Shown here piece after piece: positions 26,384 to 30,124 of a stretch of DNA of 30,307 nt. Both the position numbers and the translations under genes were made by a program. How positions within the stretch are numbered: position 1 is the first letter of the stretch; every line of letters begins with the position of its first letter. The notes under the pieces are model-generated. The model made no database searches. It was not told the origin of the DNA and was given only the letters and a program-made list of their open reading frames with translations. The DNA lies in the IMG/VR virus record IMGVR_UViG_3300023174_000486, positions 1-30,307 of that record. The stretch is one strand, 5' to 3'. This DNA comes from a virus.

Positions 26384-26962
26384 TTAGCCTCCGAAGTTGG
26401 CGCGGTTCATGCGGCGGGTCTTGCTGTTGGCAACAGCGAAGTCGCATAGGTTCAAGGCGAACGGAATGTCGTCGTCCATGTCCGAGAAGCCGGTGCCAGC
26501 ACTCCACCCTGCAGCATCTCCCGTGCGGGCCGGCGTGCCGCCCGTGCCGTAACCAGCAGCCTCGCCAGGCCGGCGCGGTGCCGGTGCGCGGGGGGCTGGA
26601 GCGGGAGCGGGAGCGCGGGCCGGGGCAGCGCCATCGCCTTCTTCGCGGGGTTGGCTGATCGAAAATTCAATGCTCACCACGCGGCCAACAAGCGAGTGGC
26701 CCTTGCCGTTCTTGCCTTCGAACTCCTGAATATTCACGTCCTGCAAGACGGCGACGATGCCCTTACCCTTTGTCAGATATGGCGCGAGCGCTTCGGCCTG
26801 CTTGCCCCAAAGCGTGGCCTTGACCCATTGAGTCGGCTGCTCGCCGTCCACTTTTCTGCCGTAGTTGCAGGCGATGGCAATATCAGCCACGGCCTCGCCG
26901 CTGGGGATGAAACGGAGTTCAACGTCTCGGCCAATGCGGCCATGTGCGATTGCGTTCAGCAT
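26384..26962 (-). CDS. ssb: Single-stranded DNA-binding protein
   Basis: A 192-residue SSB that coats single strands during phage replication and recombination. The OB fold covers residues 1-105 with the usual opening (NAIAHGRIGRDVELRF), 'VKATLWGKQAEALAPYLTKG' and 'FSISQ'. A flexible Ala/Pro/Gly/Arg linker covers 108-158. The acidic interaction tip DMDDDIPF is at 161-168 but is not terminal: 24 further residues follow (ALNLCDFAVANSKTRRMNRA then NFGG). In most SSBs IPF is the last triplet. The start is 15 nt after the helicase stop; the stop is 2 nt before the next gene. Confidence 0.93.
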   Translation of the reverse strand: MLNAIAHGRIGRDVELRFIPSGEAVADIAIACNYGRKVDGEQPTQWVKATLWGKQAEALAPYLTKGKGIVAVLQDVNIQEFEGKNGKGHSLVGRVVSIEFSISQPREEGDGAAPARAPAPAPAPRAPAPRRPGEAAGYGTGGTPARTGDAAGWSAGTGFSDMDDDIPFALNLCDFAVANSKTRRMNRANFGG

Positions 26963-26976
26963 GCTTTCTCCTTGGG

Positions 26977-27942
26977 TTAATAGGTCTTCTGGCGCTCAAG
27001 GTGAGGCCAGGGGTTCATGTCAATCGTGCTGTTGGGGTAGGCCGTGTACTGCATGGATTCCGGGTCGAACCAGAGCTTGATTGCGCCCTCCCACCCGGTG
27101 CCGTTGCGCTGCTTGCGGCAAAAAATGATGGTGTCGGGGTCTTCTTCGTTGACCATCTTTCCGGCCTGGCGGTCTAGTTCCTTTTGCTTGTTCCGCCAAA
27201 CCAACATCAGGTTGTCCACTTGGTCTGTGATCGATCCGGACCCCTTCACATCGTTCTTGTCGGGCTGGTCGGTCTCCTTGCCGGACTTGCGTAAGTGGTG
27301 GACAAGGTGGATGTGCGCGGAGTAGTCGCGGCCGATGGCGGTCAACTCGTCGACCAGCTTTTTCTGGCCGTTGTAATCGTCCTCGCCAGCCACGCACTTC
27401 ATGAGCGAGTCAATGACCATGTGCCGAATGCCAAGCTCCTTGAAGCAATAGCGAGTCACAGCACAGATCCGGTCAGCGTTGACGGTACCCTGCTGGTCAT
27501 ACAGCCACAGATGCTTCTCGCAGAGGGCCGCAAACTGCTCGTAGATGTCGCGCAGCACGGCCACTTCCTCAGGCCTTGGCTCCGCATCATTCAGGCCCAT
27601 GAACTGGCGCACCATGCGATGCAAGGTCTTGCGCGGCTTCATCTCGAAGCTGGCAATGCACACCTTTTCGCCCTGGGCCACCAGCGAGGCCGCTGCCATG
27701 CCAGTGACGGCGCTCTTGCCGTGTCCGTTGACGCCAGCCCATAAAGTCGCCTCGCCGTGGCGGAACTTGAAGATCTTGTGCGTCTTCTCCCATGGCAGAT
27801 ATGACCCAGGCTCCACCGCGTCAGGCCGGCCAAGGTCTGCCGCCATCACCTTGAGGTATTCGCCGGCTGGGCGAACCTTCGAGGCCGTTTCCGTCTCGCG
27901 CTCGTAGGCTGACCAATCAATGTCGTCAGGGATGAGGTTCAT
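26977..27942 (-). CDS. DnaB/RecA-fold replicative helicase
   Basis: A 321-residue ATPase of the RecA/DnaB-C superfamily that would unwind DNA at the phage replication fork. Walker A is AGVNGHGKSA (about 69-78, K76). The catalytic Glu region is CIASFEM (E100), Walker B is HMVIDSL (D178), and the His/Arg sensor block is AHIHLVHHLRKS (209-220). 'GSGSITDQVDNLMLVWRNK' (about 230-250) is also typical of this helicase group. It lacks the DnaB N-terminal domain and is shorter than full DnaB. The start at 27942 overlaps the preceding stop as ATGA. Coming after the initiator gene, it makes an initiator-helicase pair like P22 gp18-gp12, a comparison based on gene order. Confidence 0.9.
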   Translation of the reverse strand: MNLIPDDIDWSAYERETETASKVRPAGEYLKVMAADLGRPDAVEPGSYLPWEKTHKIFKFRHGEATLWAGVNGHGKSAVTGMAAASLVAQGEKVCIASFEMKPRKTLHRMVRQFMGLNDAEPRPEEVAVLRDIYEQFAALCEKHLWLYDQQGTVNADRICAVTRYCFKELGIRHMVIDSLMKCVAGEDDYNGQKKLVDELTAIGRDYSAHIHLVHHLRKSGKETDQPDKNDVKGSGSITDQVDNLMLVWRNKQKELDRQAGKMVNEEDPDTIIFCRKQRNGTGWEGAIKLWFDPESMQYTAYPNSTIDMNPWPHLERQKTY

Positions 27943-28241
27943 TGATCCACCCCCATCAACCGCAAGTGCCGCCACGGTGCGCCGTCAGCCTTGGCAATGA
28001 CGGTTGATGCCCCCGCCTTGACTGCGGCATCTGCCCACCGGCTGACTGCATCGCCGTCTTTGCCTTGAACGACCACAAACAGGTCGACCAGCGCCCGCAA
28101 ATCCAAAAGCTCAGGAACGTCCGTTAGTTCAATCCGAATGTCGCCAAGCCACCCCTCTAGCTGGTGGGTGTCAGATAGCGCAACGTAGGGTGGTTTCATG
28201 CCCTTCCTGCGTGCTTCAACAACTTGATCGAGGCCGCGCAT
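27939..28241 (-). CDS. Small hypothetical protein between initiator and helicase
   Basis: A 100-residue protein with mixed alpha/beta character: 'MRGLDQVVEARRKGMKPPYV' (basic start), 'RIELTDVPELLDLRALVDLF' then VVVQ in the middle, and 'AVSRWADAAVKAGASTVIA' near the end. No catalytic motif or membrane segment is visible. It overlaps the initiator stop as TGATG and the helicase start as ATGA. Its place suggests a replication accessory factor such as a loader, but there is no sequence evidence for that role. Confidence 0.7.
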   Translation of the reverse strand: MRGLDQVVEARRKGMKPPYVALSDTHQLEGWLGDIRIELTDVPELLDLRALVDLFVVVQGKDGDAVSRWADAAVKAGASTVIAKADGAPWRHLRLMGVDQ

Positions 28242-29086
28242 CAGATGGCTCCAATCAAATTCAGCGTCGAGGCCGGTTCGGAAACCCCGGCGCCTTCCCA
28301 GCGGCGCTGGTTCAGGTAGACCAGCGGGGCCGGGATGAACTCGCCGCCGTTCTTGGTCCAGGCTTGAGACGTCTTGAGGCTGTTGACATGCCGGATTACG
28401 TCAGCGGCTACTGACTCGACCTTCTGCTTCTTCCAAACTTCGAGGCATTTGCCCTTGGACTGCTTTCGAGTGGTTGCAGGCCAAATCTCCCAGAACTCCG
28501 AAAATCCATCGGGCTCCCCCTTGGGGGTAGGGGGTTTTATCTCTTCTCTTCTCTTCTCTTCTCTGCGGTTACTCGTTACGTCACCAGTTACGTAATTCGT
28601 TACGTCACTGGTGACGTAACGCTTTGCGGAAGATTCAGATAGATCGGACTTCTTGCGCTCGCGGTATTCCTTTTGTCGCTGAGCCGCGCTCTTTGCGCCT
28701 GCGCTTCTCAGTTCGCCGGATGTGTTGTATTCCTCGAAATTCGGTAGCGCTACGGTGAACTCTTGATCATCAAAATAGGCCCATCCAACCGACTCCATAG
28801 CCTCACCGAAGCCTGGAATGCCAACCATGTCGTCGATGTCGGCAAGGTCAGCGCCACGGAACACACCGTCCTTTGTGTGTTCGTTTGCTGCCCCCCAAAT
28901 AACGAGTAACGCAGACACCGTAACGTGTCGCATAACGTTACGCGTAACGATGTCACGCATACTTCCGTGAAATCCGGTCGTAAGCGCGGCACTTACCTTT
29001 TCCGAACACTCAAGCGCCCTGGCAATCCCATTGACCTTTGGATTTGTCAGGAGTGAAGTTCTCATCTTGATCCAGTCACCAGACAT
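28241..29086 (-). CDS. Phage replication initiator (O-like)
   Basis: A 281-residue replication protein. The N-terminal 110 residues (MSGDWIKMRTSLLTNPKVNG onwards) match the DNA-binding start of phage replisome organiser proteins. A low-complexity linker follows (150-190), containing YVTSDVTNYVTGDVTSN and an Arg/Glu/Lys tract. The C-terminal domain (193-265) has 'FWEIWPATTRKQSKGKCLEV' and ends with 'IPAPLVYLNQRRWEG', the pattern of helicase-interacting C-domains. The linker codons form 24-bp tandem repeats, a likely origin within the gene, as in lambda O. The start overlaps the preceding stop as TGATG, and the helicase gene is two genes downstream. Confidence 0.85.
   Translation of the reverse strand: MSGDWIKMRTSLLTNPKVNGIARALECSEKVSAALTTGFHGSMRDIVTRNVMRHVTVSALLVIWGAANEHTKDGVFRGADLADIDDMVGIPGFGEAMESVGWAYFDDQEFTVALPNFEEYNTSGELRSAGAKSAAQRQKEYRERKKSDLSESSAKRYVTSDVTNYVTGDVTSNRREEKRREEIKPPTPKGEPDGFSEFWEIWPATTRKQSKGKCLEVWKKQKVESVAADVIRHVNSLKTSQAWTKNGGEFIPAPLVYLNQRRWEGAGVSEPASTLNLIGAI
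28541..28564. repeat. CTCTT tandem repeats (purine tract) beside iterons
   Basis: CTCTT is repeated almost five times at 28541-28564. On the coding strand this is a pure-purine AAGAG tract encoding the Arg/Glu/Lys stretch. It lies 8 nt from the iteron-like repeats. Strand-asymmetric tracts often form part of the melting region of phage origins, so it may belong to the putative origin. Its length could vary by slippage. Confidence 0.6.
28572..28619 (-). repeat. Two 24-bp tandem iteron-like repeats
   Basis: Read on the - strand, 28619-28596 and 28595-28572 are direct repeats of 24 bp with 20 identical positions. Each has the form TTACGT(C/A)AC(C/T)(A/G)GTGACGTAACGA(A/G). The plus-strand span 28598-28621 is also a perfect palindrome, CGTTACGTCAC-TG-GTGACGTAACG. 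They sit in the linker-coding part of the initiator gene. By analogy with lambda O they are candidate initiator-binding sites. Confidence 0.7.
28899..28949. repeat. Second cluster of TAACG/CGTTA motifs
   Basis: Within about 50 bp there are five copies of TAACG (28900, 28907, 28921, 28933 and 28945 as first bases) and one of CGTTA (28936-28940). The same pentamer forms the core of the iteron-like repeats 300 bp away. This cluster lies in the N-terminal part of the initiator gene. It may be a secondary binding region or reflect codon bias. Confidence 0.5.
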
Positions 29087-29205
29087 CAGAGTCCCAGCCT
29101 TTCTGCGATGGCCTGGAAGGCCCGTTCGATCTGGTCAGGCGTGGCGCCAGGGTGGGCGCGAAGCCATGCCGCTTTTTCGGCGCTGTAGAGTTGATGCGGG
29201 TTCAT
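29086..29205 (-). CDS. 39-residue early protein
   Basis: A short gene locked into the operon. It starts at 29205 by a TGATG overlap with the HNH-nuclease stop and ends at 29086 by a TGATG overlap with the initiator start. The protein reads MNPHQLYSAEKAAWLRAHPG and ends QAIAERLGL. It is helical and lightly charged, with 'LRAHPGATPDQIERAFQAIA' as the central helices. Small proteins of this size before replication genes are frequent in phages. The function is unknown. Confidence 0.75.
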   Translation of the reverse strand: MNPHQLYSAEKAAWLRAHPGATPDQIERAFQAIAERLGL

Positions 29206-29876
29206 CAGATCAACTCCCGCTGCTTTGCTGGCAGGCGTACGGGGTTTGCTGCATTGCCAGATGATTTGTTTCTGACCGGCCTCGCGGTCGGGTCTTCACC
29301 TGGCCGCTTTTCAAGACGGGCACGAAGAGTCGTGTAGCCAATGCCTGTTGACTCGCTTAGCTCGGCAAGAGTTACGCCATTGACATATCGATTGACGCGC
29401 GTATTCCTGCTTTGCTGCTTTGCTGTCGCCCATCGGCAATTGCCTGGCTCGTAGTTGCCATTTACGTCAATGCGATCCAGTGTTCTTCCGCATGGGCGAT
29501 CCCCCATATCGGTCCGGAACGCGTCAAACTCTTTCCATCGCTCGCAGACATGAATTCCTCTGCCGCCATAGTTCTCGTAGCCTCTTGCCTTCGGTGAGTT
29601 GCACCTTTCCAGCATTGACGCCCAAGTTCTGTATGTTGGTGTTCCGCACATGCCATGCTTCACATTGGCCTGTGTAGCTTTGCTTCTCGCTTCGCGCTGC
29701 AAGCATCCGCATGACTTTGTGTTTCCGCTTTGAAGGTTCTTGCCAGTCGCAATGCTTGACGCGCCGCACTCACAAACACATCGCCACTGGACGCGGCCCT
29801 CATGCGTGCTGCATACGCGCTCGACAACGGTGAGGCGGGAAAACTTGCGCCCAGCTAACTCAACAGCTTTGCTCAT
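29205..29876 (-). CDS. HNH-type homing-endonuclease-like protein
   Basis: A 223-residue nuclease-like protein. The N-terminal 60 residues carry a zinc-finger pattern, C33-x-C35-x-C37-G and C56-G-C58, with H74 beyond. The core has 'NYGGRGIHVCERWKEFDAF' (102-120), then 'RTLDRIDVNGNYEPGNCRWA' (131-150) with Q154/N158 nearby, the signature of an HNH-like family widespread in phages and mobile introns. A C-terminal helix-turn-helix (about 166-190, NGVTLAELSESTGIGYTTLR) would bind the target. Its base composition is visibly less GC-rich than its neighbours, consistent with later entry. It is nevertheless linked into the operon by ATGA and TGATG overlaps. A free-standing homing-type nuclease is the best reading; cleavage is not shown. 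Confidence 0.85.
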   Translation of the reverse strand: MSKAVELAGRKFSRLTVVERVCSTHEGRVQWRCVCECGASSIATGKNLQSGNTKSCGCLQREARSKATQANVKHGMCGTPTYRTWASMLERCNSPKARGYENYGGRGIHVCERWKEFDAFRTDMGDRPCGRTLDRIDVNGNYEPGNCRWATAKQQSRNTRVNRYVNGVTLAELSESTGIGYTTLRARLEKRPGEDPTARPVRNKSSGNAANPVRLPAKQRELI

Positions 29877-30124
29877 GCGGCCTCCGGCGTCTTGATGTCG
29901 GCAGGCTTACCGGCCCATGTGAGGGTCTGGTCTTCGCCATCTTGGTCGCGGATGGGGCGCAAAATGCAGTCGGCAATCCATGGCTGGGCTTGCTCTGGAA
30001 GAAGTCGATCAATCCTCCAATAGTTATGTTCGCCACCGACAAACTGGACGCACCGCACGATGTAGCCGTCGTACGAGTTCCCTGGGTAGGAAATCACCGC
30101 CAGATCGTTAGGCTTGCAATTCAT
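29873..30124 (-). CDS. Small early protein, LRPIRDQDGED family
   Basis: An 83-residue protein. The first 45 residues form a small beta barrel-like unit (KPNDLAVISYPGNSYDGYIV). The C-terminal half contains 'CILRPIRDQDGEDQTLTWAG', which I recall from hypothetical proteins of Burkholderiales prophages. The ATG at 30124 has AGGAGG within the preceding leader gene. The stop overlaps the HNH gene as ATGA. The function is unknown; the family call is from memory of pattern. Confidence 0.8.
   Translation of the reverse strand: MNCKPNDLAVISYPGNSYDGYIVRCVQFVGGEHNYWRIDRLLPEQAQPWIADCILRPIRDQDGEDQTLTWAGKPADIKTPEAA

Follow-up and report, generated by a model that had tools for sequence, protein, structure and literature searches.

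Paired iteron clusters and a purine tract point to a replication origin inside a phage initiator gene

Introduction

Why would a phage carry clusters of short repeats and an all-purine tract within the codons of its replication initiator? The question is raised by IMG/VR virus record IMGVR_UViG_3300023174_000486, of which the stretch analysed here, called the window, spans positions 1 to 30,307 (a 30.3-kb viral contig of 60.7% G+C), and by its 281-aa initiator gene at 28241..29086 on the minus strand. To our knowledge, replication origins have been mapped in only a few phages. We conclude that the initiator gene very probably holds this phage's origin: an in-gene origin of the lambda type, with iterons in two paired clusters and an opening element made of purine pentamers. 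In-gene origins are a kind already known; what is new is the pentameric tract, common to many families, and the second iteron cluster. If the conclusion is right, the origin and the initiator's binding word become readable from sequence in many phages and prophages.

Results

Iteron clusters and purine tract in the initiator gene

The initiator (phrog_2509, E 4.6e-35; phrog_9474, E 4.7e-31; both 'replication initiation protein') had no Pfam match; it comprises a predicted winged-helix-like N-domain, a disordered linker in which the iterons and purine tract are embedded, and a separate C-domain. The proximal iteron array (28568..28621, no strand assigned) consists of eight near-palindromic GTNAC words in both orientations, starting at 28568, 28575, 28580, 28587, 28599, 28604, 28611 and 28616 and forming 12-bp units inside an inverted repeat of 48 bp. 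The coding-strand sequence of the linker, divided into these units, is TACGTCACCAGT GACGTAACGAAT TACGTAACTGGT GACGTAACGAGT AACCGC, after which come the purine run AGAGAAGAGAAGAGAAGAGAAGAGA and a TAAAA that is A-rich. A preliminary description of this DNA had reported two 24-bp tandem repeats and a 24-bp palindrome here, and both are present. The tandem copies (28574-28597 and 28598-28621) are 79% identical and more aptly viewed as a series of GTNAC words that occur in either orientation, the finer view being one of 12-bp units with start-to-start distances of 12, 12 and 12. The palindrome (28598-28621), mismatched at one central position, makes up one half of a longer inverted repeat whose arms measure 22 bp (28574-28595 and 28600-28621; 95% identity, 4-nt loop); this longer repeat folds as DNA at -23.1 kcal/mol versus -8.4 for shuffles (z -7.5).

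Three nucleotides separate this array from the purine tract (28540..28564, minus strand, which is the coding strand), the adjacent CTCTT element of the preliminary description. It is an unbroken run of 25 purines composed of AGAGA repeats, reads TCTCTTCTCTTCTCTTCTCTTCTCT on the plus strand, encodes REEKRREE and is the proposed origin-opening element. The arginine codon AGA is used three times in the tract and accounts for 9 of 355 Arg codons in the 14 other genes of the window. A count of Arg codons inside the longest purine run was rejected as circular, since such a run can hold only AGA or AGG.

A second, distal iteron cluster, absent from the preliminary description, lies in the N-domain codons (28906..28956, no strand assigned), with GTWAC at 28906, 28920, 28937 and 28944 and GTCAC at 28952. 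All six CGTWACG heptamers of the window fall in the initiator gene, with three each in the linker and the N-domain codons. In 20000 random synonymous recodings of the gene that followed the codon usage of the phage, six heptamers were never reached (mean 0.46). The linker array was matched in 34 (CGTWACG) or 11 (GTWACG) of the 20000 versions, the distal cluster in 1 (CGTWACG) or 0 (GTWACG), and the 25-nt purine run in 3. The iteron sites are non-random, and the protein sequence does not account for them.

Relatives keep the DNA elements and differ in their C-domains

Four close relatives of the initiator (57-62% aligned identity) keep both clusters and the tract, although their C-domains are entirely different; the distal cluster is retained in loci L002, L003, L004 and L008, and in L003, for which a whole 39.8-kb contig is available, all five CGTWACG heptamers lie in the initiator gene, in two clusters. 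The preliminary description held that relatives keeping the protein and losing the repeats by synonymous change would speak against an origin; the opposite was found, the DNA being kept as the protein, the frame and the C-terminal domain vary.

In L010 and L011, two relatives at a greater distance, the gene lacks GTWAC; GTSAC words stand instead in both N-domain and linker, so that both clusters changed together. Among 46 genes with GTNAC-type linkers, the N-part held 4.8 W words where the linker was W-type, versus 1.3, and 5.7 S words where it was S-type, again versus 1.3.

Word sharing followed the N-domain. Gene pairs with similar N-domains had repeated words in common in 34-68% of cases, versus at most 10% of pairs with unrelated N-domains and none of the 11 pairs similar only in the C-domain. 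This pattern fits recognition of the iterons by the N-domain, with word sharing seeming to track that domain and not the C-domain. At locus L009 (2100-2430), a homologous C-domain follows an unrelated N-domain whose repeats are GACGCGTCAACC-type and whose purine tract is GGAAG-type, a natural domain swap in which the iterons were exchanged too.

The purine tract recurs in linkers of diverse initiators

A scan of IMG/VR for the exact 24-nt purine string returned at least 120 loci. Among the matches listed, a coding-strand open reading frame (ORF) of at least 100 aa ran through the tract in 118 of 120, and at nearly all loci the tract lay in the linker of an initiator-like protein, behind many different N-domains. 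Of 109 N-parts searched without the tract, at least 85 matched initiator PHROGs, a few others being of replisome-organiser types. Directly 5' of the tract stood a repeat array with a family-specific word (GTAACG, GTCCGC, GTCACG, GTCTAC, GTTCAAC, GTCCCG and others), encoded by unrelated peptides in other families. All three reading frames of the tract were used (87, 26 and 5 loci); as 5 and 3 have no common factor, AGAGA repeats give one REEKR cycle whichever frame is read. Among the hosts of the genome-derived loci are Pseudomonas, Cupriavidus, Stenotrophomonas, Planctomycetes, Verrucomicrobia and Acidobacteria.

AAAGG, the alternative purine pentamer of composition A3G2, was found at 70 loci, and at least 39 of 58 scanned N-parts matched a different initiator family, phrog_2562; further N-parts of this set matched other initiator families. 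Repeats of a purine tetramer, AAGG, taken as a control, gave 22 loci, 11 of them with an ORF of at least 100 aa, few of which were initiators. Two of the 120 AGAGA loci, L120 and L136, are longer microsatellites (84 and 40 nt) that no initiator ORF surrounds, and count as background of that scan. A blastn search of phage records with the tract gave no match, probably owing to the low-complexity filter. In the initiator linkers of L016, L018 and L020 an A/C-rich, KTKTKT-encoding tract replaces the purine pentamers, with a different repeat of ATCGATTC-type words in L016 and L018, which suggests further classes of in-gene origin.

Codon usage, phasing and the distal zone

Codons were counted on the peptide REEK[RK]REE, at loci found by homology with codon-degenerate patterns. 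In all 29 occurrences the first four codons were AGA GAA GAG AAG, yet AGA made up only 52 of 626 Arg codons nearby (8%). What is conserved is the DNA rather than the peptide.

In a set of 106 non-identical genes, the gene's own word was read in three frames in 62, two in 36 and one in 8. Its reading in two or three frames in 98 of the 106 supports the preliminary suggestion that the DNA repeat gives rise to the peptide repeat as a by-product. Both word orientations occurred in the arrays of 88 of these genes. The array shows helical phasing, both internally and with respect to the tract: spacings between words of like orientation have maxima at 11-12, 22-24 and 33-36 nt, and in 54 genes the distance from the end of the last word to the tract is 1-3 nt, other genes grouping at 11-15 and 21-24 nt.

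Relative to the tract, own-word positions were bimodal, falling within 90 nt of it or 200-400 nt upstream, with few between or downstream. After filtering to N-domains of <60% identity, the distal zone of the 55 remaining genes held 78 own-word matches versus 22 expected when words were shuffled between genes (maximum 46 among 1000 shuffles). The distal excess over synonymous recoding was 2.43 versus 0.68 for GTNAC and 2.60 versus 0.35 for GTCC, and weaker in the AAAGG set (1.07 versus 0.44). A comparison of the highest 6-mer count ahead of the tract with that of the best segment elsewhere in the gene was indecisive, since the distal cluster inflates that control; positional and word-shuffle tests replaced it. 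Anatomy, DNA-level conservation, the two clusters, the co-switching of word type and the phasing are all evident from these sequences.

Gene neighbourhood

Downstream of the initiator and in the same direction lie genes for a 332-aa DnaB-like helicase (26977..27975, minus strand; Pfam DnaB_C, E 2.2e-17; phrog_5482, phrog_239), a single-strand DNA-binding protein (SSB; 26384..26962, minus strand; Pfam SSB, E 7.9e-15; TIGR00621 above cut-off) and a NinB-like protein. Between initiator and helicase, a 100-aa ORF (27939..28241, minus strand) with no family match is possibly a loader or accessory protein. Together these genes make up a replication operon of the kind typical of phages. An HNH endonuclease-like gene (phrog_374, E 8.2e-67) lies immediately upstream of the initiator, at 29205-29876, and may encode a homing endonuclease near the origin.

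The structure model of the initiator's N-domain (pLDDT 89) has its elements in the order H-E-H-H-E-E, which is the winged-helix order. A profile search of PDB sequences with this domain gave no match.

Discussion

How might such an origin work? The N-terminal winged-helix-like domain would bind GTNAC half-sites in the linker codons, about one helical turn apart, and assembly of the initiator on these iterons would bend the DNA, aided by bridging to the second cluster, which lies in the N-domain codons ~340-390 bp upstream. Under this stress the adjacent AGAGA tract would open, one strand being captured, and the C-domain together with downstream gene products would deliver the DnaB-like helicase to the opened tract. 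We infer this function, from N-domain binding through bridging, opening and helicase delivery to origin activity itself, from sequence. With about even confidence we extend the proposal to a purine pentamer tract (AGAGA or AAAGG) that serves as a portable opening element of unrelated initiators across bacterial phyla, lying within the initiator gene immediately 3' of initiator-specific iterons and accompanied by a distal cluster 200-400 bp upstream that joins in a looped initiation complex.

Several observations weigh against an in-gene origin. The tract, at ~40% G+C in a contig of 60.7%, is relatively and not strongly A+T-rich, and is less so than that of lambda. The fold search of PDB with the N-domain returned winged-helix-like matches only, none significant (E > 0.2). 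The distal cluster is absent from lambda and has no experimental precedent, and we found no binding or replication data in the literature for this phage or its close relatives. The co-switching of word type between clusters could partly reflect genome base composition, and N-domain and iterons are physically linked, so that co-inheritance alone is no proof of binding. The cumulative GC skew of the window has its minimum at 29885, near the contig end, and is uninformative; confounded by that end and by the one-sided gene order, it was dropped as evidence on the origin.

Could the same features serve something other than an origin? The tract might mainly be a recombination joint, through which C-domains are swapped by way of a common 24-30-bp linker string whose identity the exchange preserves; the iterons might then still be an origin. 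Near-identical N-domains do carry unrelated C-domains right after the tract, and the tract does not differ between phyla, a uniformity beyond what an opening element should require. A mere joint, however, would not be expected to lie at a helically phased distance from the iterons, nor to have its place taken by a different pentamer, AAAGG, in other families and by a purine tract of yet another sequence in lambda, and it leaves the iterons and the distal cluster unexplained. We consider this explanation unlikely as the main one. The chief uncertainty about the tract is the reason for its uniformity, to which C-domain exchange may contribute in a way compatible with origin function.

Two further explanations fare less well. 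The sites could be operators, the initiator (or a repressor) regulating its own gene by binding there, with the origin elsewhere; two clusters of palindromic words ~340 bp apart do resemble looping operators, and binding within a gene could block transcription. Both clusters, however, lie within the coding sequence and away from its start, and operators would give no reason to expect a near-invariant, strand-asymmetric tract beside the array or the fit to the lambda origin, which makes them a quite improbable account. Least credible, to the point that we give it hardly any weight, is that the repeats serve the protein, the VT repeats and REEKRREEK forming a functional linker or single-stranded-DNA-binding tail that the DNA pattern merely follows. 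The peptide is constant too, all three AGAGA frames encode the REEKR cycle and charged linkers are common; against this stand the synonymous null models, the reading of words in several frames, codons that are almost invariant despite the rarity of AGA elsewhere (8% of Arg codons), and the unrelated peptides that encode the repeats in other families.

If the gene does hold the origin, the common pentamer tract raises the question why unrelated initiators in different hosts need one string; possibly the string is read by a conserved host factor or in a step that involves the helicase. From the paired clusters one would expect a looped complex, of a kind for which lambda offers no description. 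An open-access literature search found no description of an AGAGA tract in phage initiators, although an earlier description is possible.

Comparison with known origins

Phages epsilon15, phiPSA1 and CP2 have homologous initiators in which an identical purine tract directly follows the iteron array. The iteron word is GTCCGC in epsilon15 and phiPSA1, differing from that of the window, and GTAACG in CP2; no origin is among the annotated features of the stretches compared. Record KJ507100.1 gives the initiator region of phiPSA1 (33588-34262) the label 'pyocin large subunit | peptidase', an apparent mislabelling; in RefSeq NC_024365.1 it is a replication initiation protein.

A circular 8.5-kb E. 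coli plasmid (L256:6048-7088), for which just two replication genes are listed, a DnaT-like initiator and protein P, resembles a natural lambda-dv plasmid. Its initiator has another N-domain and no purine run of at least 12 nt, and so provides no test of the tract.

In SPP1, oriL lies within initiator gene 38, with initiator-binding direct repeats, an opening region, a loader and a DnaB-type helicase (PMC6316719). Compared by published description, it likewise combines in-gene repeats with an opening region, but unlike the window SPP1 has a second origin ~13 kb away.

The parallel drawn in the preliminary description was to lambda. The window initiator had no match to O-like PHROGs at E 0.1, and homology to lambda O was thus not detected. 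Its units are 12-bp GTNAC units, unlike the 18-19-bp lambda iterons, its tract consists of AGAGA pentamers where that of lambda is A-rich, and it has a second iteron cluster, in the N-domain codons, that lambda lacks. The annotated lambda O gene has four iterons and, after them, an 18-nt run of purines that is the longest in the gene. Purines of the lambda opening region are reported to be almost all on one strand (review PMC5043065, citing Schnos 1988), and the minimal unwinding unit is two iterons plus the adjacent tract (PMC7466680). As in the lambda origin in gene O and its Stx phage relatives, the window has its proposed origin in the middle of the initiator gene, with iterons in inverted repeat, a strand-asymmetric purine region directly 3' of them on the coding strand, and a helicase-delivery gene downstream. 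The window agrees with the lambda-like logic feature by feature, in the initiator gene, the linker iterons, the 3' asymmetric tract and the helicase, including against annotated lambda O.
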